Shown here: piece after piece, positions 8,584-19,122 of the stretch | Numbering within the stretch: the stretch's first letter is position 1 | Layout of the letters: each line of letters begins with the position of its first letter | NCBI RefSeq assembly: GCF_018771565.1 | Contig: NZ_CP076326.1 | Location: 2,108,001-2,172,000, forward strand | Direction of reading: 5' to 3' | Source: Thermoflexus hugenholtzii | GTDB taxonomy: Bacteria > Chloroflexota > Anaerolineae > Thermoflexales > Thermoflexaceae | Length of the DNA: 64,000 bases | The notes under the pieces: generated by a model | The model's database searches: none | The model's input: the letters and a program-made list of their open reading frames with translations, nothing else | What the model was told of the DNA's origin: nothing | Made by a program: the position numbers and the translations under genes

Positions 8584-9747
8584 ATGAGCAAGCCGCTCCC
8601 TGATGGAGGATCCCTTCCGGTAAGGGGAGGCGTGAGGGATCTCCTGCGCGTCCTGGGGGAACGGGGGCTCCGGTTGCCTTTGTTCTACAAGATCCTGATC
8701 GCCAACACCCTCCTGGTCGCGGCCGGGGCCGTGATCGGCACCACCCTGTCCTTTCGGGCAGGCCACCAGCTGTCCGGGGAGGCCTATCATCGCTGGCACT
8801 ACGTTTACATCCTGCTCTTCGCGGCGGGAGGGACGGCGCTGAGCGCCCTGATCTACAGCTTCCTGCTGCGCTGGGCCCTTCGTCCTCTGGAACAGCTCCA
8901 GGAAGCGGCCGAAGCGATCCGTCAGGGCCGGCTCGATGTGCGCGTCCCTCTCCACCCCTTCCGCGACGCTCAGATGGAACGGCTGGTGGAGACCTTCAAC
9001 CGGATGGTGGAGACCATCGCCAGCAACAGCGAGCGCCTGCACTGGCTCTCCCAGCAGATCCTGCAGGCTCAGGAGGAGGAACGGGCACGGATCGCGCGGG
9101 AACTGCACGATGAGGCCGCCCAATGGTTGACCTCCCTGCTGATCCGCCAGCGCCTGCTTCTCCGCAACCTCCCCCCGGAGATGCGCCCGGAGGTGGAGGA
9201 GCTCCAGCGGATGACCGCCGCCGCCCTGGAGCATCTCCGCCGGATCGCCATGGAGCTCCGCCCCGCCATCCTGGATGACCTGGGGCTGGTGGAAGCGCTG
9301 CGATGGCAGGCGGAGGAGTTCCAGAAACAGACAGGGGTCCCCATCACCCTCCGGGTCCAGGGACGGATCGAACGGCTGCCCCGCCAGGTGGAGCTGGTTC
9401 TTTATCGGGTCGCCCAGGAAGCCCTGACCAACATCGCCCGGCACGCCCGGGCCACCCGGGTGGAGGTTACATTAAACTGCTCAACGGAGCATCTGGAGCT
9501 TTTCATCGCAGATGACGGGGTCGGCTTCGACCCGGAGGCGGTCCGGCGGTCGCGCGCCCGCTCCCTCGGGCTGATCGGGATGGCCGAGCGTCTCGCCCTG
9601 ATCGGGGGGACGCTGGAGATCGATTCCGCCCCCGGCAAGGGCACGCGCATCCGCGCCCGGGTGCCTGCGGGTGGACCCCATTGTCTGGCTCGGGAGGTCT
9701 GGCATGATGAACGGAGGACGGAAGATCCGCATCCTGATCGCGGATGA
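8584..9747 (+). CDS. NarL-family membrane sensor histidine kinase
   Basis: This 387-residue kinase has two predicted membrane spans (about residues 36-58 and 75-98) that bracket a very short extracytoplasmic loop of under 20 residues. A HAMP linker, a HisKA_3 dimerisation domain with the phospho-acceptor His in ARELHDEAAQ, and a HATPase_c domain with EALTNIARHA, DDGVGFDP and GLIGMAERL follow. The tiny loop suggests that the signal is sensed in the membrane or cytoplasm. Its 3' end overlaps the start of the response-regulator gene by 44 bases, so the pair is coupled. It starts 46 bases after the CoA-transferase gene. Confidence 0.92.
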   Translation: MSKPLPDGGSLPVRGGVRDLLRVLGERGLRLPLFYKILIANTLLVAAGAVIGTTLSFRAGHQLSGEAYHRWHYVYILLFAAGGTALSALIYSFLLRWALRPLEQLQEAAEAIRQGRLDVRVPLHPFRDAQMERLVETFNRMVETIASNSERLHWLSQQILQAQEEERARIARELHDEAAQWLTSLLIRQRLLLRNLPPEMRPEVEELQRMTAAALEHLRRIAMELRPAILDDLGLVEALRWQAEEFQKQTGVPITLRVQGRIERLPRQVELVLYRVAQEALTNIARHARATRVEVTLNCSTEHLELFIADDGVGFDPEAVRRSRARSLGLIGMAERLALIGGTLEIDSAPGKGTRIRARVPAGGPHCLAREVWHDERRTEDPHPDRG

Positions 9748-10378
9748 CCACCCGGTGCTCCGCCGGGGTCTGCGGGCGCTGATCGAAGAAGAGCCGGACA
9801 TGGAGGTGGTGGGGGAGGCCGGGAACGGCCTGGAGGCGGTGCAGCTGGCCGAGCGGCTCCGCCCCGACGTGGTCATCATGGACATCTCGATGCCGGAGCT
9901 GGACGGGCTGGAGGCGACCCGGCGGATCCGCGAACGTTCCCCTTCCACCTACATCCTGATCCTCACCGTCCACGCCCACGAACGCTACCTCTTTCCCGTC
10001 CTCAAAGCGGGGGCCTCCGGATACGTTCGCAAGACCGCTGCGGATGAGGAGCTGATCGAAGCCATCCGGGTGGTAGCCCGAGGCGATGTCTTCCTCTATC
10101 CCTCCGCCACCCGCATGCTCCTGGACGATTACCTCGCCCAGGTTCGGGCCGGGCGTGAGCAGGATTCCTACGAGAGCCTCAGCGAGCGGGAGCGGGAGAT
10201 CCTCCGCCTGCTGGCGGAGGGTCACACCAACGCGGAGATCGCTCAGAAATTGAACCTCAGCGTGAAAACGGTGGAGACTTACCGAACGCGCATCATGGAG
10301 AAGCTGCATCTGCGCACCCGGGCCGAGCTGGTGCGTTATGCCCTCCGCAAAGGCCTGATCTCCGAAGAGACCGCTTGA
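9704..10378 (+). CDS. NarL/FixJ-type response regulator
   Basis: This 224-residue regulator has a complete receiver domain, with the acidic pair D14-D15, phospho-acceptor D60 in IMDISMPELDG and the lysine of GYVRKT. A LuxR-type helix-turn-helix (LSEREREILRLLAEGHTNAEIA) lies at about 155-215. The ATG at 9704 has a GGGAGG site six bases upstream, better than an in-frame ATG at 9671. It is the partner of the overlapping histidine kinase. The next gene, a radical SAM protein, follows after 18 bases and is probably in the same transcript. Confidence 0.93.
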   Translation: MMNGGRKIRILIADDHPVLRRGLRALIEEEPDMEVVGEAGNGLEAVQLAERLRPDVVIMDISMPELDGLEATRRIRERSPSTYILILTVHAHERYLFPVLKAGASGYVRKTAADEELIEAIRVVARGDVFLYPSATRMLLDDYLAQVRAGREQDSYESLSEREREILRLLAEGHTNAEIAQKLNLSVKTVETYRTRIMEKLHLRTRAELVRYALRKGLISEETA

Positions 10379-10396
10379 TTCGAAAGGAGGACCCCT

Positions 10397-11575
10397 TTGG
10401 CCCGTTTGAGGCTTGAAGCGGACGGAACGCTGCGCCTCCCCCCGGAGATCCTTCGTTCATACGGCGTGGAGCCGGGGACGGAAGGCGTGCTGGAGCAAAC
10501 GGAGGATGGATGGGCTTTCCACGCCATCCGCCCCGATCTGCGCCGCGTTTACGTGGAGGTCACTGCCCTCTGCAATCTCAACTGCGCCATCTGCATCCGT
10601 CGGGTCTGGCGGGATCGCCCCGGATCCATGCGCTGGGAGGTTTTCGAAGAGCTCATCCGACAGCTGCGGGCCTTCCCGGAGCTGCGCCGGATCACGTTCG
10701 GCGGGTTCGGGGAGCCTCTCGTCCATCCCCGCATCGCGGATATGGTGGCCCTGGCACGAACCCTGGGTGTGGGGATCACCCTGACCACTAACGGCCTGCT
10801 TTTGGATCGGGCGATGGCGGAGGCGCTGTCGGAAGCCGGGCTGGACACGGTGGTTGTGTCCATCGACACCGCCCACCTTCAGGCCTATCGGCAGGCCGGC
10901 CTGGTCGACGGCCTGGATCGGGTCATCGATAACATCCGCGGGCTGCAGGCGCTGGCGCGGGCGCACCGCCGCCTGGTCCCCCGCATCGGGCTGGAGTTCG
11001 TGCTCACCCGGGACAGCCTCCCGGAGCTCCCTCATGTCCCCCGCCTGGCCCAGGCGCTGGGAGCCTCGTTCGTTCTCATCACCCATCTGCTCCCCCACAC
11101 GCCGGATCAGGCCCAGGCCATCCTGTATGACCGCGGAGAGCCCCTCCCCGCCCTCCCCGGCTGGCCGGTCCCCGGCGGGGACTGGCTGGTCTGGGGCCTC
11201 GCTCGCATGCCGCGCTCCCGATGGGGCGCGATGCGGCGCTGCCGCTTTATCGAAGAACGCTCCACCGTGATCCGCTGGGACGGCGGGGTCAGCCCCTGCT
11301 ATGCGTTGATGCATTCTTATCCCTATTACATTTACGGACGTCGCAAAGAGGTCACCGCCTACATCCTGGGCTTCATCCAGCAACAACCCCTCATCGAGAT
11401 CTGGGGCTCGGAGGAATATGTGCGGTTCCGGGCGAAAGTGCGGGCCTTCCGTTTCCCCTCTTGTGTGGATTGCGGGATGGCCTGCTACTACGCCGCCCAC
11501 AACGAGGACTGCTGGGGAAACACTCCCTCCTGCGCCGATTGTCTCTGGGCTCAGGATATCATCCGCTGCCCATGA
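10397..11575 (+). CDS. Radical SAM/SPASM protein, tungsten-oxidoreductase-maturase-like
   Basis: This 392-residue protein starts at a TTG behind a strong GAAAGGAGG site. Residues 1-45 resemble a short AbrB/SpoVT-type swapped-hairpin domain. The radical SAM cluster is C59-x3-C63-x2-C66 (ALCNLNCAICIR). The C-terminal third has the extra cysteines of a SPASM region, ending in NEDCWGN and CADCLWAQDIIRCP. From memory this tail and the N-terminal domain resemble the radical SAM maturase found with tungsten-cofactor oxidoreductases; I cannot confirm the subfamily. No AOR-type tungsten enzyme is encoded in this window. It follows a two-component pair, so it may be a regulated maturation or peptide-modifying enzyme. 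Confidence 0.75.
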   Translation: MARLRLEADGTLRLPPEILRSYGVEPGTEGVLEQTEDGWAFHAIRPDLRRVYVEVTALCNLNCAICIRRVWRDRPGSMRWEVFEELIRQLRAFPELRRITFGGFGEPLVHPRIADMVALARTLGVGITLTTNGLLLDRAMAEALSEAGLDTVVVSIDTAHLQAYRQAGLVDGLDRVIDNIRGLQALARAHRRLVPRIGLEFVLTRDSLPELPHVPRLAQALGASFVLITHLLPHTPDQAQAILYDRGEPLPALPGWPVPGGDWLVWGLARMPRSRWGAMRRCRFIEERSTVIRWDGGVSPCYALMHSYPYYIYGRRKEVTAYILGFIQQQPLIEIWGSEEYVRFRAKVRAFRFPSCVDCGMACYYAAHNEDCWGNTPSCADCLWAQDIIRCP

Positions 11576-11582
11576 AGAAAAA

Positions 11583-11613
11583 GCGGGTCAGACCCCTCCA
11601 GGGTCTGACCCGC
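11583..11613 (-). terminator. Strong terminator of the rhodanese/Mo-oxidoreductase operon
   Basis: A perfect 13-bp stem (GCGGGTCAGACCC and its complement) has a 5-base loop and, read on the minus strand, is followed by TTTTTC. It lies between the convergent radical SAM and rhodanese genes. It should end the minus-strand operon and may also stop plus-strand transcription. Confidence 0.85.
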
Positions 11614-11631
11614 CAGATGCCCTCGCCGGCT

Positions 11632-12549
11632 TCACTGGGCTTTCTCCACGGGCTCCCCGGCCTTCTGCCAGCCGACGATGGCGGGGGTGAAGTTGCGCAC
11701 GTTGGTGTAGCCCAGCAGCTGCAGCGCCGCCGTGGCCATCCCCGCTCGATGCCCCGTCCGGCAATAGACCACCACCGGCTTGTCCTTCGGCAACTTGTCC
11801 AGATTCTTCGCCAGCGTCCGAATCGGGATGTTCACCGCCCCAGGGATGTGCCCCTCCGCATACTCGTTCGGCTCCCGCACATCCACCAGCACCACGTTCC
11901 CCGCCGCCAGCATGTCCTTCAACGCTTCCACCGTCCCCACCGTGTAATACTTGTCCGGAATCCCGCTCAAAAACCGATCCACCACCGCGAGGAGCTCCGG
12001 ATCCACCTGGGGCTGTCCGACGGAGCGCGCTTCCACCGGCTCGGTGCTGAGCGGCTCCCCCGCGTCCTTCCAGCCGACAATGGCGGGGGTGAAGTTGCGC
12101 ACGTTGGTGTAGCCCAGCAGCTGCAGCGCCGCCGTGGCCATCCCCGCTCGATGCCCCGTCCGGCAATAGACCACCACCGGCTTGTCCTTCGGCAACTTGT
12201 CCAGATTCTTCGCCAGCGTCCGAATCGGGATGTTCACCGCCCCAGGGATGTGCCCCTCCGCATACTCGTTCGGCTCCCGCACATCCACCAGCACCACATT
12301 CCCCGCCGCCAGCATGTCCTTCAACGCTTCCACCGTCCCCACCGTGTAATACTTGTCCGGAATCCCGCTCAAAAACCGATCCACCACCGCCTTCACATCG
12401 AGGGCCGCTTTGGTGGGCGTCGGCGGGACCGGAGTGGGCGCCACCGTCGGCGTGGGAGGGGCCACGGTGGGCGTCGGAGCGACCGCAGGCCCGCAGGCCG
12501 CCAGCGTTAGAGCAAAGATGGTGAGAAGGATCCACAACGTCCGCTTCAT
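11632..12549 (-). CDS. Lipoprotein with two nearly identical tandem rhodanese domains
   Basis: This 305-residue protein has a lipoprotein signal (LTLAACGP, lipid Cys 19) and a Pro/Thr/Val-rich linker to about residue 47. Two rhodanese domains offset by exactly 134 residues follow. Each has VDVREPNEYAEGHIPGA and the active-site loop YCRTGHRAG, with catalytic cysteines C129 and C263. It should be anchored outside the cytoplasmic membrane and handle persulfide or thiosulfate sulfur. It is the last gene of the minus-strand run that starts with the molybdopterin oxidoreductase, and it is separated from the cytochrome b gene by only 34 bases. That placement supports a sulfur-metabolic role for the operon. 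Confidence 0.88.
   Translation of the reverse strand: MKRTLWILLTIFALTLAACGPAVAPTPTVAPPTPTVAPTPVPPTPTKAALDVKAVVDRFLSGIPDKYYTVGTVEALKDMLAAGNVVLVDVREPNEYAEGHIPGAVNIPIRTLAKNLDKLPKDKPVVVYCRTGHRAGMATAALQLLGYTNVRNFTPAIVGWKDAGEPLSTEPVEARSVGQPQVDPELLAVVDRFLSGIPDKYYTVGTVEALKDMLAAGNVVLVDVREPNEYAEGHIPGAVNIPIRTLAKNLDKLPKDKPVVVYCRTGHRAGMATAALQLLGYTNVRNFTPAIVGWQKAGEPVEKAQ
11668..11988. repeat. 321-bp direct repeat, copy A (rhodanese domain 2)
   Basis: This stretch matches 12070-12390 with only two mismatches that I could find by eye (G/A in GACRATGG and G/A in ACCACRTTCC). The offset is 402 bases, exactly 134 codons, so reading frame is preserved. Confidence 0.95.
12070..12390. repeat. 321-bp direct repeat, copy B (rhodanese domain 1)
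   Basis: This is the partner of 11668-11988. An 81-base unique linker separates the two copies. Near-identity at synonymous positions indicates a recent duplication or continuing gene conversion. Confidence 0.95.
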
Positions 12550-12583
12550 GGTTGCCTCCTGAGACTCAGGGTTTCGTGCATGC

Positions 12584-13300
12584 TTATCCCACTGCTTCCT
12601 CCTCGGCCCGGGCGCCGCGAACCCGGCGAGGCTCCGGGATCTCCTCCTGCACTTCGATCACATAGGGAGGCTCCTGGGGGATGGAGGCCAGCCACAGGGC
12701 ATGCTCCATCCGAGCGTATTCCTCGCTGACGTAGCCAGTGGTCATCGCCGGCAGGGCATCGTAGACGAAAGTGAAATAGATGTGGCCTACGGTGAGGATG
12801 GCCATCAGGGCCATCGAGAGATCATGAACGAGCGTTGCCGCGAGCAGGCCGGTGGGCCCGAGGGAGCCCTTGCCCAGCCACAGGGCCAGGCCGGAGCCGG
12901 AGATGGCAAAGTAAGCGATGATGGTGAGGGCGTGATGGATCTTCTGGCCCGCGTTGACCCGCCCCTGAGGGGGCAGATGCGAGGTGCGACCCAGGAAATA
13001 GCCCGGGAAACCTTTCAGCCATTCCAGATCCTCTCGGGTGTAGGTGAAGGAATCCCGAACCAGATCCCGAAGCCCCCGGAAGTCCAGAAGGGCATACAGG
13101 GCGGGGGTGAGGAGGAAGATCACCGCCGCCACCCGGTGCAGCAGGCGGGAGAGGCCGCCGGCCGCGAGGAAGGAGAGGGGTGGCCAGATCAGGGCCAGCC
13201 CGGTGATGAGGAGAACGAAGAAGGCCCCCGCGTGGAGCCAGTGGACCACCCGCTGGCCCGGACGATAGCGCAGCACCCATCGGACAGTCCGCGTGGCCAT
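12584..13300 (-). CDS. Cytochrome b subunit (FdnI/PhsC-like) of a membrane oxidoreductase
   Basis: This 238-residue integral membrane protein has four predicted helices. Histidines suitable for two b hemes are in VVHWLHAG (H20, H23), LLHRVAA, ATLVHDLSM and TVGHIYFTF. The motif GRVNAGQKIHH before the third helix is typical of the gamma subunit of formate dehydrogenase-N and related di-heme cytochromes b. It would exchange electrons between the quinone pool and the Fe-S subunit encoded three bases upstream. The charged C-terminal tail (about 175-238) is cytoplasmic. Confidence 0.88.
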   Translation of the reverse strand: MATRTVRWVLRYRPGQRVVHWLHAGAFFVLLITGLALIWPPLSFLAAGGLSRLLHRVAAVIFLLTPALYALLDFRGLRDLVRDSFTYTREDLEWLKGFPGYFLGRTSHLPPQGRVNAGQKIHHALTIIAYFAISGSGLALWLGKGSLGPTGLLAATLVHDLSMALMAILTVGHIYFTFVYDALPAMTTGYVSEEYARMEHALWLASIPQEPPYVIEVQEEIPEPRRVRGARAEEEAVG

Positions 13301-13303
13301 GGT

Positions 13304-14038
13304 TCACTCCCCATGGTTTTGCGAGTTCCGCTTTTCCTCTAAATGACGCCGCCGGGCGATGAAGAAGGCGATCCCGCTGGTGAGGACGCTGAGCGCGAGG
13401 GCGCCCAGACTCAAGGGCTGAACCCCATCCTTCCAGATGGCCAGGGGCGGGATCTGCGGCTGCGCCGGCAGGCCCAGCGCCTCCGGCGGTGCCGGAAGCA
13501 CCATGATGACCCCCAGACCGCCCATCTGGGTCTCTCCATAGATCTGAGCCTCGGGGTAGCGATCCTTCAGAGCGGCCACCCGCGCCCGCGCCTCCGCCAG
13601 GATCTCTTCCCGGGTCCCGCACTGCAGGGCCCCCGCCGGGCAGGTTCGGACGCACCAGGGCTCCTCACCCCTCTGGACCAAATCGAGACACGAAGCGCAT
13701 TTGGAGACGCGTCCGTCCACCAGGCGCGGCACCTTATATGGGCAAACTTCGACGCAGTAGCCGCACCCGCTGCATCGGTCGAAATCCACCAGCGTGAAGC
13801 CATCGCGCTTGTAGAGGGCGCCGGTCGGACAGACCTGGACGCATGCCGCCTCCGCACAGTGGAAGCAACGATGAGGGACGAAGGCGCCCCGCAGCTCGGG
13901 GAAGCGGCCCCACACCACCTCCCGGATCTCCACCCATCGCTCTCCGGGGGCCAGCTCCCGGCCGGCCTTGCAGGCGATCACACAGGCCTGACAACCCAGA
14001 CATCGGCTCAGGTCGATGAGCATCGCCAGTCGGGCCAC
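13304..14038 (-). CDS. Four-cluster ferredoxin-type electron-transfer subunit (FdnH/PhsB-like)
   Basis: This 244-residue subunit starts at GTG behind GGGAGGTGTGAA. It carries four [4Fe-4S] binding sets, including CLGCQACVIACK, CFHCAEAACVQVCP, CSGCGYCVEVCP and CASCLDL..CVRTCP. A single hydrophobic helix near residues 210-230 anchors it, as in FdnH. It links the molybdopterin subunit to the cytochrome b. The gene starts one base after the stop of the catalytic subunit. Whether the complex faces outside follows from the Tat signal on the catalytic subunit. Confidence 0.9.
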   Translation of the reverse strand: MARLAMLIDLSRCLGCQACVIACKAGRELAPGERWVEIREVVWGRFPELRGAFVPHRCFHCAEAACVQVCPTGALYKRDGFTLVDFDRCSGCGYCVEVCPYKVPRLVDGRVSKCASCLDLVQRGEEPWCVRTCPAGALQCGTREEILAEARARVAALKDRYPEAQIYGETQMGGLGVIMVLPAPPEALGLPAQPQIPPLAIWKDGVQPLSLGALALSVLTSGIAFFIARRRHLEEKRNSQNHGE

Positions 14039-14039
14039 T

Positions 14040-16316
14040 TCACACCTCCCGGATCAGGCGCACGAAATTCACCCGCATCCCCGCCCCGCCCGAGATCGGA
14101 TCCAGACGATACCGGGTGATGAGCAGGTTGTCGCTCGCCCCCCGTCCCTCCGCCCGGCTCAACCGGGAACCCCGATGGCCGAAGCCGTGAACCAGATAGA
14201 CGGCATCCTTGCGGATACGCGGGGTCGCCCGCACCCGCACCGGACCGCTGCGGACGCCGTCCTGGTTCTCCAGGAGAACCAGGTCGCCGTTCTTCAAGCC
14301 CAGCGCGGCAGCCGCCTCATCGTTGACCCACACCTCGTTCTCCGGATAAACCTCCGCCAGCCAGGGGTTGTTCTGGGTCTTGCCGAAGGTGTGGAGCGGG
14401 TGCCGCCCATACAGCAGGCGGAAGTATCCCGGCAGCGGCTCCTCCACCGGCTCATAAACGGGGAGCGGATCGAAACCCGCCCGGGCCAGGGCCTCCGAGT
14501 AGATCTCGATCTTGCCGCTGGGGGTGGGGAACGGCGTCTCCCCCTCCCCGTAGTCCTCCAGGTAAGGCTTGCCGGGCCAAGTGAAGACCCCGCCCGCCTC
14601 CCGCAGCCGGTCCAGGGAGAGGCCCACGGACATCAGGCGGGTGTTCAGGTATTCCTCGATGCTGGACCACTGGAAGTAATCGGCCAGACCCAGCCGCAAC
14701 CCCAGCTCCCGGGCGATCCACCAACCCGGACGGGTGTCCGGCAGAGGCTCCACCGCCGGCTCCCGCAAGGCGATGTAGGGCGTGCGGTGCAAAGCCACCC
14801 ACAGCTCATCGTAACGCTCCAGGAACGTCGCCTCCGGCAGGACGATGTCCGCCCAGGCCAGGTGCTCCTGGGGGAGCACATCGATGGCCAGGACGAACTC
14901 CAGGCGCTTCAACGCCTCGATGGTGCGCGGGACGTTGGGGATCGAATGGAACAGGTTGACCCCGTAGACGACCAGGCCGCGGATGGGATAGGGCTGGCCG
15001 GTGATCATCGGCTCGATGAGCTCCTGGATGACCACGGGGCCGGTGGCGAACTTGCTCCCCACCCCATCCGCGCGGGGCGGATGCCCCGGCGTGTCCGGGA
15101 TCCGGATGCCCGTCGCCGCCGCGCCGCATCCTCCCGCCGCCACCTCCACCGGGAAAGGCGGGTGCGGATAGGGATCCAGGGCCGGCGCCCGCGGGATGTA
15201 GAGGCCGCCCCGCCGCCCCACGTTGCCCAGCAACACGTTCAGGATGAAGAGCGCCCGCATGCGCTGGGTGTCGTTCCCATACCAGACCACATGCCGCCCG
15301 GGCGGGATCACCACCTGAGGCCGGTGGGCTGCCATCTCCCGGGCGACCTCCCGGATCACCTCCGCCGGGATCTCGGTGATCGGGGCCGCCCATTCCGGAG
15401 TGAAGGGACGGATATGCTCCGCCAGACGCTCAAAGCCAACCGTGTATTTCTCGATGTATTCGCGATCGTAAAGCCCTTCGGTGATCAGGACGTTCATCCA
15501 GGCCAGAAGAAGGGCCGTGTCCGTGCCGGGCTTGATGGGCAGCCAGCGGTGCGCCTTCAGCGCCGCCGTGGAGCAGCGGGGATCCACCACCACGAGCTTC
15601 GCCCCCCGGGCCAGGGCCCGGGCGAAGTCCTGCATCACTGTGTTGTGGGCGTTCTCCCCGATGTGATTGCCGATGAGGACGATGTAGCGGGTGTTCTCCC
15701 AGTCCACCGGCTCGTGGCCGCCTACGCCCCGCCCGAAGGTGATCTGAGCGGCAACCTCGCGGGGGGTCAGACAGAGGCCGGTGGCCGGCTTGCCGACGTT
15801 GGGGCTGCCGAAAGCCAGAGGCAGATAGTCCCCGAACCAGAAGTCCCCGGTGGTGTGGGCAAACCACGCCACCGACTCCGGCCCATACTGATCCCGGAGG
15901 CGAGCCAGCGCTTCCGCCGCTCGATCCAGCGCCTCCTCCCAGGTCGCCTCCCGGAACGACCAGGTCCCCCGTTCCCCGGTGCGGATCAGCGGCTTGCGCA
16001 GACGGTCCGGATCGTAAAGGTGGGCCACGGCCGCCTGACCCCGGCCGCACAGACGGCCCCGGCTCTTCGGGTCCTTCGGGTTGCCCTCCACCTTCACGAC
16101 CCGGCCGTTCACGGTATAGACCAGCATGCCACAGCGCCACATGCACATATCGCAGTAGTTGTAAGTGATCCGCACCTCATCGGGACGATACCACGGCCAG
16201 CGCGCCCCGCGGGCTCGAAGGAAGGCGAGCACAGGCTCTCCGATCCGGGAGAGGCCCATCCACATCCCCGCAAGGGCGCCCCCACGTTGCAGGAACTCCC
16301 GACGGGTCAGCTTCAT
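14040..16316 (-). CDS. Tat-exported molybdopterin oxidoreductase, thiosulfate/polysulfide-reductase-like catalytic subunit
   Basis: This 758-residue catalytic subunit belongs to the DMSO reductase superfamily. A twin-arginine signal (TRREFLQRGG) opens the protein. The FS0 cluster ligands are C55, C58, C62 and C90. A cysteine at 182 (TGLCLTP) sits where the Mo/W ligand is expected; I see no in-frame UGA and no formate-dehydrogenase-type CxH signature. The length and the Cys ligand favour a PhsA/PsrA-like sulfur-oxyanion or polysulfide reductase. The FdnI-type cytochrome and rhodanese neighbours point towards thiosulfate reductase. Formate dehydrogenase or another member cannot be excluded. The ATG at 16316 is chosen because it places the Tat signal at the N-terminus. 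Confidence 0.82.
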   Translation of the reverse strand: MKLTRREFLQRGGALAGMWMGLSRIGEPVLAFLRARGARWPWYRPDEVRITYNYCDMCMWRCGMLVYTVNGRVVKVEGNPKDPKSRGRLCGRGQAAVAHLYDPDRLRKPLIRTGERGTWSFREATWEEALDRAAEALARLRDQYGPESVAWFAHTTGDFWFGDYLPLAFGSPNVGKPATGLCLTPREVAAQITFGRGVGGHEPVDWENTRYIVLIGNHIGENAHNTVMQDFARALARGAKLVVVDPRCSTAALKAHRWLPIKPGTDTALLLAWMNVLITEGLYDREYIEKYTVGFERLAEHIRPFTPEWAAPITEIPAEVIREVAREMAAHRPQVVIPPGRHVVWYGNDTQRMRALFILNVLLGNVGRRGGLYIPRAPALDPYPHPPFPVEVAAGGCGAAATGIRIPDTPGHPPRADGVGSKFATGPVVIQELIEPMITGQPYPIRGLVVYGVNLFHSIPNVPRTIEALKRLEFVLAIDVLPQEHLAWADIVLPEATFLERYDELWVALHRTPYIALREPAVEPLPDTRPGWWIARELGLRLGLADYFQWSSIEEYLNTRLMSVGLSLDRLREAGGVFTWPGKPYLEDYGEGETPFPTPSGKIEIYSEALARAGFDPLPVYEPVEEPLPGYFRLLYGRHPLHTFGKTQNNPWLAEVYPENEVWVNDEAAAALGLKNGDLVLLENQDGVRSGPVRVRATPRIRKDAVYLVHGFGHRGSRLSRAEGRGASDNLLITRYRLDPISGGAGMRVNFVRLIREV

Positions 16317-16347
16317 CGAACACCCTCCTCCAGCGGACTTCAAACCC

Positions 16348-16830
16348 TCACGGACCAACGGGGCTCAAGCGAGACGAGGCGGAGATCTCCCCTTCTCCGG
16401 CTCCGGCCTCCTGAGCGGGGGCCGCCGGCAACAATCCCTCCCGCTCCATCGCCCGGCGGACCAGGCAGAGGATCGTGACCATCCACTCTTCATCCAGCCG
16501 ATCCCGCGGGGTGCTGGCGCACGCCCCCGCTGCCCAGAGGGCGGACCGATAGGCTTTCGGCGCGCCCGGCGGCAACAGCACCACCACGCGCATCTGAGGG
16601 TTGCGATCGAACATGCGGGAGAGGAGATCAGGCGTTTCCTCTTTCGCCCATTCCCAATCCAGCAACAGTAACGTCCTCGGATCACGCCCGGCCCTCTCCT
16701 CCAGCTCGGAAGGCGCTTCCACCGTTTCCACCGTCACCGGCCAGGGAAGTAGATCCAGGGCTGCCTGAGCCACTCGCTGCATGGTCTGACGAAACAACGG
16801 AGACGCGATCGCCAGAAGAACTCGCAACAT
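16348..16830 (-). CDS. Pseudo-receiver (degenerate CheY-like) protein
   Basis: This 160-residue protein has the alternating pattern of a response-regulator receiver domain. It starts RVLLAIASPLFRQTMQR, close to the usual V-L-I-A-D-D-H-x-x-F-R pattern but with I-A-S in place of the acidic pair. An aspartate is retained at the phospho-acceptor position (TLLLLDWEWA, D58), but no typical S/T-x-x-x-K ending is clear and there is no output domain. Such proteins act as phosphorylation-independent adaptors. It precedes the molybdopterin oxidoreductase gene by 31 bases on the same strand, so it may be the first gene of that operon. The family assignment is by fold pattern only. Confidence 0.6.
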   Translation of the reverse strand: MLRVLLAIASPLFRQTMQRVAQAALDLLPWPVTVETVEAPSELEERAGRDPRTLLLLDWEWAKEETPDLLSRMFDRNPQMRVVVLLPPGAPKAYRSALWAAGACASTPRDRLDEEWMVTILCLVRRAMEREGLLPAAPAQEAGAGEGEISASSRLSPVGP

Positions 16831-17175
16831 CTTGGCCCCCAACCGGAATGAGAGATCCTCCGCCTTGACCACTTTCAGTTTCCCGAACCCCACCCCGCCT
16901 GTCATCAGGGAACTCCCGGATCCTGCAGGGGAAAATCCCCGCACCGCGGGCGGGAGAAATCCCGACTCTGAGCGAGGGAAAAGAGAAAGGGGGACCGGTC
17001 CGGCCGCTCCGGCCGGCTGACGAGCGCCCTATCGTCAGGCCGGGTTAAAATCCTCACAGAGGGCTTCCACGCCCGCCCGGAGCGGGCCTTCCGGGACCCG
17101 ATGCGCCCGCGCGGGGACGGGACGGGACCCTGGGGGACGCGATCATGCCTATCCCCCCATCCGGAGGGGCCTTTC
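16831..17175. other. Divergent intergenic region with small hairpins
   Basis: This region lies between the pseudo-receiver (minus) and the acyl-CoA synthetase (plus). It contains short hairpins, GGGGA-AAA-TCCCC at 16928-16940 and CGGGA-GAAA-TCCCG at 16951-16964. A possible -10 box TAAAAT lies at 17046-17051, without a clear -35. I see no further gene. Confidence 0.4.
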
Positions 17176-19122
17176 ATGAAAGAGTTGAACCTTCAGGTCG
17201 TCTGGCATCCGGACCCGGAGACGGCGGAGCGGAGCAACGTCTCCGCCCAGATGCGCCGGCTGGGCCTTCCCTCTTATGAAGCCTTCCTCGAATGGTCCTT
17301 CACCGACCCCCATGGCTTCTGGAAAGCCTTCTTCGAGGACACCGGCTTCCGCTGGCGCGCCCCCTATCGGGAGACCCTGGACGTTCGCAACGGGGCACCA
17401 TGGGCCCGATGGTTTGTGGACGGGGCCCTGAACGCCACCGAGAGCGCTTTAGATCGCCACGTGGAGGCCGGGCGCGGGGAGGCCATCGCCCTGATCTGGG
17501 AGGGAGAAGAAGGGGAGATCCGCCGCTACACCTATCGCCAGGTTTTCGAGGAGGTCGCCCGGCTGGCCGGGGCGCTGCGCGCCCTGGGCGTGCAGCCCGG
17601 CGATCGCATCGGGTTGTTCCTGCCCATGATCCCGGAGGTGGCCTTCGCCCTGCTGGCCGCCATGCGCATCGGGGCCATTGTCATCCCCCTGTTCTCCGGC
17701 TTCGGCCCTGAGGCGGTGGCCGTGCGCCTGCAGGACGCGGAGGCCCGCTTCCTGATCACCGCGGATGGTTTCCCCCGACGGGGACGGATCGTTCCGATGA
17801 AGGAGATCGCCGATGAGGCCCTGCGCGCCGCCCCCAGCGTGGAGAAGGTCCTCGTGGTCCGCCGGGCCGGCAACCCCATCCCGTGGCGGGAAGGGCGGGA
17901 CCTCTGGCTCCACGAGGTCATCGGCCGGGGGGCGCCCGTTCACGAGGCGCCCGCCTTCCCCAGCGAGACACCTTTCATGATCATCTACACCTCAGGGACC
18001 ACCGGCCGGCCCAAGGGGACAGTCCACGTCCACGGCGGGGCGCCCATCAAAGCCGCCCAGGATATGTTCCACCTCTTCGATGTGAAGCCGGTGGACGTCA
18101 TCCACTGGGTGACCGACATCGGCTGGATGATGGGGCCCTGGCTGATCCTGGGCAGCCTGACCCTGGGCGCGACGTGCCTGATCTACGACGGGGCGCCCGA
18201 TCACCCGGAGCCGGACCGCCTGTGGGAGCTGGTGGAGCGGCATGGCGTCACCATCCTGGGCGTCTCCCCCACTCTGATCCGGGCCCTCATGCGCGCGGGG
18301 ACGGAATGGCCGGATCGTCACGCCATGCCCTCGCTGCGCCTGCTGGGCTCCACCGGCGAACCGTGGAACCCGGAGCCGTGGCTGTGGACCTTCCAGCACG
18401 TGGGCAAGGGGCGATGTCCGATCATCAACTACTCCGGAGGCACGGAGATCTTCGGAGGCATCCTGGGCTGCACCGTGCTGCGCCCCCTCAAACCCTGCTC
18501 CTTCAACACCGTCGTCCCCGGCGTCCAGGCGGACTGCGTGGACGAGGCCGGGCGGCCGGTGCGGGAAGAGGTGGGCCTCCTGGTGATCCGCAACCTGAAC
18601 CCCGGGATGACCCGGGGCTTCTGGCGGGATCCCGAACGCTACCTGGAGACCTACTGGTCGCGCTGGGAGGGGCTCTGGTATCACGGGGACCTGGTTTACA
18701 TCGACGAGGACGGCTTCTGGTATATCCTGGGGCGGGCGGATGACACCCTGAAGGTGGGCGGCAAGCGCCTGGGCCCGGCGGAGATGGAATCCGTGCTGGT
18801 GGAGCACCCTGCGGTGGCTGAGGCGGCGGTGATCGGCGTCCCGGATGAGATCAAGGGAGAAGCCCCCGTGGCCTTCGTGGTCCTGAGGCCCGGTTATGAG
18901 CCCGACGAGGAGCTGCGGGCGGCGCTGATGGAGCACGTGGCCCGGCGGATGGGCAAAGCCCTGGCGCCGAAGGAGGTCCGCTTCGTCCGCGACATCCCCA
19001 AGACCCGCAACGCCAAGCTGATGCGCCGGGTCATCCGCGCCGTCTACCTGGGGCGTGACCCCGGGGACCTCTCCGCCCTGGAGAACCCGCAGGCGGTCGA
19101 GGAGATCCGCCGGGCTCGCTGA
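17176..19122 (+). CDS. Acetyl-CoA synthetase-like AMP-forming acyl-CoA ligase
   Basis: This 648-residue ligase activates a carboxylic acid to an acyl-AMP and then to an acyl-CoA. The P-loop-like core motif YTSGTTGRPKGT and the INYSGGTEIFGG, YHGDLVYIDEDGFWYI and DTLKVGGKRLGPAEME segments are present. The C-terminal catalytic lysine lies in PKTRNAKLMRRVI. The N-terminal ACAS-type domain precedes the AMP-binding domain, so acetate, propionate or another short acid is likely. The ATG at 17176 has a GGAGGGG site; an upstream in-frame start at 17101 is less likely. The next gene follows after 33 bases. Confidence 0.88.
   Translation: MKELNLQVVWHPDPETAERSNVSAQMRRLGLPSYEAFLEWSFTDPHGFWKAFFEDTGFRWRAPYRETLDVRNGAPWARWFVDGALNATESALDRHVEAGRGEAIALIWEGEEGEIRRYTYRQVFEEVARLAGALRALGVQPGDRIGLFLPMIPEVAFALLAAMRIGAIVIPLFSGFGPEAVAVRLQDAEARFLITADGFPRRGRIVPMKEIADEALRAAPSVEKVLVVRRAGNPIPWREGRDLWLHEVIGRGAPVHEAPAFPSETPFMIIYTSGTTGRPKGTVHVHGGAPIKAAQDMFHLFDVKPVDVIHWVTDIGWMMGPWLILGSLTLGATCLIYDGAPDHPEPDRLWELVERHGVTILGVSPTLIRALMRAGTEWPDRHAMPSLRLLGSTGEPWNPEPWLWTFQHVGKGRCPIINYSGGTEIFGGILGCTVLRPLKPCSFNTVVPGVQADCVDEAGRPVREEVGLLVIRNLNPGMTRGFWRDPERYLETYWSRWEGLWYHGDLVYIDEDGFWYILGRADDTLKVGGKRLGPAEMESVLVEHPAVAEAAVIGVPDEIKGEAPVAFVVLRPGYEPDEELRAALMEHVARRMGKALAPKEVRFVRDIPKTRNAKLMRRVIRAVYLGRDPGDLSALENPQAVEEIRRAR

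Follow-up and report, generated by a model that had tools for sequence, protein, structure and literature searches.

A predicted quinol-linked polysulfide reductase operon in Thermoflexus hugenholtzii and candidate selenocysteine forms of its catalytic subunit in Chloroflexota relatives

The polysulfide reductase PsrABC of Thermus thermophilus (PDB 2vpw-2vpz) is the closest described relative of the system reported here, and anchors its catalytic subunit PsrA through an NrfD-type membrane subunit, PsrC. The PsrA proteins of Thermus and Wolinella are only 33% identical according to a passage of PMC3764938. The PhsABC enzyme of the Salmonella/E. coli type joins a MopB catalytic subunit to a four-cluster subunit and a cytochrome b, and in the FdnGHI enzyme of E. 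coli the catalytic subunit FdnG is a MopB enzyme containing selenocysteine (Sec). In Wolinella, the periplasmic, rhodanese-type protein Sud, a soluble single-domain dimer, is considered a donor of polysulfide sulfur to a PsrA.

Here, we have analysed an operon in a 64,000-nucleotide stretch of the genome of Thermoflexus hugenholtzii (NZ_CP076326.1, positions 2,108,001 to 2,172,000 of the forward strand; hereafter the window), which is part of a 3.3 Mb chromosome represented by one contig. Five open reading frames (ORFs) on the minus strand span positions 16830-11632 and are separated by gaps of 31, 1, 3 and 34 bases (Table 1). An earlier reading made from the DNA letters by themselves (the sequence-only reading) had described a Mo/W oxidoreductase with a Cys ligand, exported by twin-arginine translocation (Tat), which is packed with genes for a four-cluster subunit, a cytochrome b of FdnI type and a double rhodanese lipoprotein at gaps of 1-34 bases and closed by a strong terminator; our analysis confirmed these contents and the gaps, and found a 15-pair terminator-like hairpin at the end. 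We favour, with moderate confidence, the view that the operon would encode a Thermus PsrA-type enzyme that reduces polysulfide (sulfane sulfur) at the expense of quinol, and that Sec would occupy the position of Cys397 of its catalytic subunit in Chloroflexota relatives.

Family of the catalytic subunit and its partner subunits

The 758-residue catalytic subunit has an N-terminus of the twin-arginine type (MKLTRREFLQRGGALAG), one CxxCxxxC..C cluster motif and three MopB Pfam domains, and its Cys182 aligns with the column of the molybdenum (Mo) ligand. That this protein is related to Thermus PsrA came from three comparisons. First, Thermus PsrA (2vpw_A) is the top Foldseek match with 62% identity, and its match scores 1044.6 bits, with no other PDB chain scoring above 192.7. 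Second, the window protein, its relatives and Thermus PsrA form one clade with a Shimodaira-Hasegawa approximate likelihood-ratio test (SH-aLRT) value of 98, and E. coli SE11 PhsA, E. coli FdnG, two paralogues from the same genome and two 41%-identity Chloroflexota proteins fall outside it. The tree came from a quick maximum-likelihood run on 45 rows, for which the program warned of long outgroup branches; L025, L084, L086, L087, L088 and L089 were left out, and L061, whose motif was missed by the label pattern, was labelled Sec by hand. Third, the active-site set of Thermus PsrA (His145, Cys173 and Arg332) aligns with His154, Cys182 and Arg341 of the window protein. Thermus PsrA also has a cysteine at the column of Cys397 of the window protein, and the His/Arg/Cys397 set is not found in PhsA and FdnG. 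Because of the PsrA match, the clade and the residue set, we conclude that the 758-residue protein is, by its sequence family, a Thermus-type PsrA with formate dehydrogenase-like electron-transfer subunits.

The curated NCBIfam models of PhsA, FdhG, DmsA and TtrA all score the protein under cut-off, PhsA being the nearest (NF012032, 491.7 bits with a cut-off of 694). The sequence-only reading had called the enzyme PhsABC-like, and this part of it has to be given up, since the PhsA model stays under cut-off and PhsA lies outside the clade. The identity as a PhsA was rejected on the same two grounds and because the residue set differs. The plasmid collection gave only Enterobacterales PhsA-like matches, with 30-34% identity. 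On the other hand, the PsrA score and the clade agree with what had been proposed about function, and a sulfane sulfur reductase acting outside the membrane is the best reading of the protein. The sequence-only reading had named a clear grouping of the catalytic subunit with formate dehydrogenases as the result that would refute it, and the tree shows no such grouping.

The 244-residue subunit contains the cysteine motifs of four Fe4S4 clusters, becomes hydrophobic over a stretch close to the C-terminus, and is 32.8% identical to FdnH over 268 residues and 40.0% identical to PhsB over 150 residues. The 238-residue subunit matches PF01292 with 69.8 bits, is 21.6% identical to FdnI and has four histidines that align with those of FdnI; PhsC gave no blastp match to it at E <=1. 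The best curated models of the two subunits are formate dehydrogenase beta and gamma, respectively, both under cut-off. These models are what would speak for a periplasmic formate dehydrogenase of the FdnGHI type, an alternative that we consider almost negligible in view of the catalytic subunit. There, the FdhG model (TIGR01553) reaches 136.5 bits with a cut-off of 814, the tree places the protein away from FdnG, and Cys182 is followed by LTP instead of the HGP of FdnG, so that the (Sec/Cys)-His-x-Pro ligand motif is absent. The identity as a formate dehydrogenase was rejected on this evidence.

The window thus differs from Thermus in having a PF01292 cytochrome b instead of an NrfD-type PsrC, together with an FdnH-like subunit and a rhodanese lipoprotein. 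The NrfD-type anchor, as in Thermus, is present at the same-clade loci L068 and L080. At L065 and L069, a cytochrome b match is missing between the iron-sulfur gene and the rhodanese gene, and the complexes encoded there may have no dedicated membrane anchor. As judged from these gene sets, the membrane module is exchangeable within the PsrA clade.

The type of anchor bears on whether the enzyme could be a thiosulfate reductase, in which the cytochrome b would provide a Phs-type coupling and the rhodanese would use or supply thiosulfate. By family knowledge, thiosulfate is the classical substrate of rhodanese, and PhsA is the best of the curated models. A shorter C subunit is moreover taken as a hint of thiosulfate reductase in a passage of PMC2500031, and the window anchor is a cytochrome b. 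We regard a thiosulfate reductase as unlikely, since the score is under the PhsA cut-off, PhsA is outside the clade and lacks the His/Arg/Cys397 set, and the type of anchor varies within the clade.

In-frame TGA codons at the Cys397 column

Cys397 is a second conserved cysteine, distinct from the Mo ligand Cys182, and corresponds to Cys388 of Thermus PsrA. In the psrA gene of one relative (G018), a single in-frame TGA aligns with these two cysteines. A scan of the named genomes gave 35 psrA loci, and 37 rows (the window, L025, L029 and L055-L088) were read at this column. A single in-frame stop is present in 12 rows, always as TGA and always at the Cys397 column; 23 rows have Cys, and the remaining two (L086, L088) are frameshifted, with TGA at the same column once their frames are read separately. 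The Mo-ligand Cys is retained in all 37 rows. When 396 genomes of the class were searched, 13 rows with exactly one TGA were obtained; they belong to 11 genomes, among which are G018 and further assemblies already known. Reading 21 loci from this search added six new ones, two with TGA and four with Cys, while L111 gave no motif and L112 was left out. This brings the total to 16 TGA genes, all with the codon at the Cys397 column. As a 400-genome sample of the phylum (E 1e-180) had matches only in its two Thermoflexus genomes, the spread beyond Thermoflexus rests on the scan of named genomes and the class search.

The sequence after the TGA resembles a protein-coding sequence. Amino-acid identity is 74.6% after the TGA and 75.1% before it (14 Sec and 24 Cys rows), and differences after the TGA amount to 20.7, 13.0 and 48.3% at the first, second and third codon positions of 12 Sec genes. 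From this pattern, we conclude that the frame downstream of the TGA is under protein-level selection.

The TGA sites are also followed by hairpins of the kind expected of a bacterial selenocysteine insertion sequence (bSECIS). The constraints applied, as given in a figure legend of PMC13188914, were a loop of 3-9 nt, a stem of 4-16 bp, a G in the first two loop positions, a spacing of 16-37 nt and an energy of <=-7.5 kcal/mol. In the first set, 13 of 14 TGA sites and none of 21 Cys sites passed; L057 (partial, its motif missed by the script) and L025 were dropped from the Cys rows, and L089 was also absent. With the new loci added, the counts became 15/16 for TGA and 1/25 for Cys. The passing TGA sites share a hairpin of the form GAGGC-loop-GCCTC, with the loop starting 23-24 nt after the TGA. 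A common loop among them is AGGTCT, similar to that of the E. coli fdhF SECIS element.

The machinery for Sec, searched as SelB and tRNA-Sec in the 12 TGA genomes and 22 others, is consistent with this. SelB scores over cut-off in 10 of the 12 TGA genomes and tRNA-Sec was found in 11, so that each of the 12 has at least one of them. Neither was found in three of the 22 others (G077, G078 and G092), and all three have Cys. The Cys genes of G077 and G078 (L073, L074) are the only ones nested within the TGA clade, and the Cys state of G092 was predicted and then found.

Could the TGA codons be real stops, assembly errors or signs of decay? The genes are predictions from DNA only, come mostly from metagenome assemblies, and two of them are frameshifted. 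However, all 16 codons stand at the one column where other genes have Cys, the downstream frame appears to be selected at the protein level, hairpins follow 15 of the 16, and loss of the Sec machinery is accompanied by Cys. We consider this explanation very improbable. We read the TGA relatives as predicted selenocysteine polysulfide reductases, and Cys397 as a residue that would be redox-active. Sec replaces Cys mainly at redox-active positions, and for this reason the TGA column points to a candidate catalytic residue of polysulfide reductase.

Sec in this position would set the relatives apart from FdnG. In FdnG, Sec is the metal ligand (UHGP), whereas the window clade keeps Cys as its metal ligand and the predicted Sec of the relatives lies at another position. 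If true, the Sec form would be, to our knowledge, the first MopB enzyme with Sec away from the metal-ligand position. Table 1 of PMC13188914, in which 119 families of prokaryotic selenoproteins were inventoried in 2026, has two MopB families, FdhA (formate dehydrogenase) and FwdB (formylmethanofuran dehydrogenase), both with UHxP, and PsrA is not listed there. A selenoprotein polysulfide or thiosulfate reductase was not found in the open-access literature searched, supplements being outside the search, and no selenoprotein-specific PsrA model is among the best 25 of 26 NCBIfam matches (June 2026) to the G018 protein. The Sec form of PsrA would then represent a family of selenoproteins that has not been described. 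Whereas the operon of the window is a new variation on an established type of enzyme, it is the predicted Sec form of its relatives that deserves attention.

Rhodanese lipoprotein and the proposed route of sulfur

In the last protein of the operon, of 305 residues, a lipobox-like LAAC is combined with two rhodanese domains (PF00581), each with a CRTGHR loop. The sequence-only reading had called the pairing of a rhodanese with the enzyme unusual. It turned out to be the normal state in the clade, since a multi-domain rhodanese lipoprotein gene lies downstream of psrA at 23 of 25 loci when only those with 2.5 kb or more of downstream sequence are counted (33 loci were tabulated). The rhodanese genes of the clade encode two or four domains; none has a TGA, and internal stops are absent from 24 of the 25 non-window genes, the frame of L063 being broken by one TAA/TAG within a domain. 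Whereas Sud is a soluble protein with one domain, the clade has a predicted lipid-anchored chain of two or four domains encoded next to psrA. No description of a psrA-rhodanese operon of this kind was found in the literature searched.

The two domains in the window are 98.1% identical in DNA over 324 nt. Across five Thermoflexus genomes, the domain pair of the same protein has 94.1-99.1% DNA identity, compared with 80.9-96.3% between genomes, and both copies pair within each genome in the domain tree. The near-identical domains are likely a product of concerted evolution, for which gene conversion is the best reading. The domain pair of G018 has diverged, and the tandem is therefore probably old.

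Two assemblies (L068/L070 and L077/L080) hold two TGA-type psrA copies each. In each pair, one copy is accompanied by an NrfD-type anchor as well as a rhodanese of four domains, and the other with a cytochrome b and no rhodanese that we could find.

We propose that these parts work together as follows. The FdnI-type cytochrome b would take electrons from menaquinol, and the four-cluster subunit would relay them to the exported PsrA, with its [4Fe-4S] cluster and Mo/tungsten (W)-bis(pyranopterin guanine dinucleotide) site. Sulfane sulfur would be gathered as Cys persulfide on the lipid-anchored rhodanese domains and then presented, so that the acceptor could be polysulfide or rhodanese-bound sulfane sulfur. 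Next to the metal site, Cys397, which lies in a loop seen in the clade, would accept the sulfur or cleave it, with release of sulfide. In the Chloroflexota clade, residue 397 would be Sec, inserted at the in-frame UGA via the SECIS hairpin. We suggest, more tentatively than the family assignment, that a Thermus-type Psr could have in Cys397 or Sec a second catalytic residue, which takes sulfane sulfur from the lipid-anchored rhodanese chain and passes the sulfur to the metal.

The same parts could in principle run in reverse, with the rhodanese delivering persulfide or sulfane sulfur for oxidation and electrons entering quinone or the respiratory pool. By family knowledge, subunits of the formate dehydrogenase N type normally move electrons from the catalytic subunit to quinone, and the relatives are in lineages that, as a matter of general knowledge, include aerobes. 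However, the closest solved relative, Thermus PsrA, is described as a quinol:polysulfide oxidoreductase in a passage of PMC8076601. Oxidation seems rather improbable to us.

Several points count against a polysulfide reductase in which Cys397 or Sec would be at work. The window anchor is formate dehydrogenase-like, as in thiosulfate reductases and formate dehydrogenase N, and not PsrC-like. In the AlphaFold2 model, residues 380-428 of the Cys397 loop have predicted local distance difference test (pLDDT) values <50, so that the model does not place Cys397 either near the metal or far from it. The TGA genes come from assembled metagenomes. Shuffled downstream sequences pass the SECIS test at 14-17% (397/2800 for TGA and 696/4200 for Cys sites), as do 43 of 362 other TGA triplets, covariation in the hairpin is minimal, and the strict test fails on the known element of E. 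coli fdnG. As shuffles and other TGA triplets pass and the fdnG element is missed, the test supports Sec but does not prove it. Sec machinery is also present in most Cys genomes, which makes its link with TGA a one-way link. The rhodanese gene is missing at L070 and L077, which share assemblies with L068 and L080, where it is present.

If the proposed enzyme is real, it would help us to understand the handling of sulfur chains by a Mo enzyme, and also why psrA is accompanied by a rhodanese-repeat lipoprotein. The known selenoproteins would gain a family whose genes are split by gene callers at the UGA. Because of this splitting, sulfur respiration in Chloroflexota may be under-annotated.

Gene order and neighbouring features

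The coordinates of the operon and its neighbours are collected in Table 1. The first ORF, for which a start further upstream is also possible, encodes a 160-residue protein without a Pfam or NCBIfam match, and a homologue lies directly upstream of psrA at 15 of 36 surveyed loci. A promoter scan at the cluster gave no sigma-70-like site, where 0.9 would be expected. Terminator-like sites in 9600-17400 number two, compared with a mean of 3.7 in shuffles, so that the count is not significant; the stem of the closing hairpin is long.

Table 1. Features of the operon and its neighbours in the window
Feature	Position	Strand	Basis
160-residue receiver-like protein, first ORF of the cluster	16830-16348	-	Receiver-like by sequence reading
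psrA, 758 residues, Tat-exported Mo/W catalytic subunit of Thermus PsrA type	16316-14040	-	Pfam, NCBIfam, PDB match, tree, alignment
Cys397 codon, TGC in the window (TGA in predicted selenoprotein relatives)	15128-15126	-	Computed from ORF start at 16316
Four-[4Fe-4S] subunit, 244 residues, FdnH/PhsB-like, C-terminal membrane stretch	14038-13304	-	Comparison with FdnH and PhsB
FdnI-type cytochrome b, 238 residues	13300-12584	-	PF01292; alignment with FdnI
Two-domain rhodanese lipoprotein, 305 residues	12549-11632	-	PF00581 twice, 185.2 bits; CRTGHR loops
Intrinsic-terminator-like hairpin closing the cluster	11614-11582	-	15 pairs, 10 GC, T tail
Radical S-adenosylmethionine (SAM) maturase, tungsten-oxidoreductase type	10397-11575	+	TIGR04317, 382.2 bits (cut-off 380)
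Histidine kinase and response regulator, convergent neighbours	8584-10378	+	Profile matches

The convergent histidine kinase and response regulator are possible regulators of the cluster, and their homologues are also found near psrA at 11 of the 36 surveyed loci. The radical SAM maturase is kept beside the operon at the Thermoflexus loci L025, L055, L056 and L057. The genome has four AFOR_N loci, all of them outside the window, and the maturase is thus set apart from its likely targets.

Both psrA and the tandem rhodanese are absent from three of eight relatives in the genus (G002, G003 and G006, whose assemblies are 84-93% complete). This is the pattern of an operon gained or lost as a unit, or hidden in assembly gaps.

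Beyond the PsrA clade, the loci L032 and L033 have 41%-identity PsrA-like genes together with YeeE/YedE-like, cytochrome c-like, Rieske-like and cytochrome b-like genes, the last three recognised by reading their translations; these gene sets may belong to a further sulfur system. At L058 and L070, a second PsrA-like gene is found near psrA together with YeeE.

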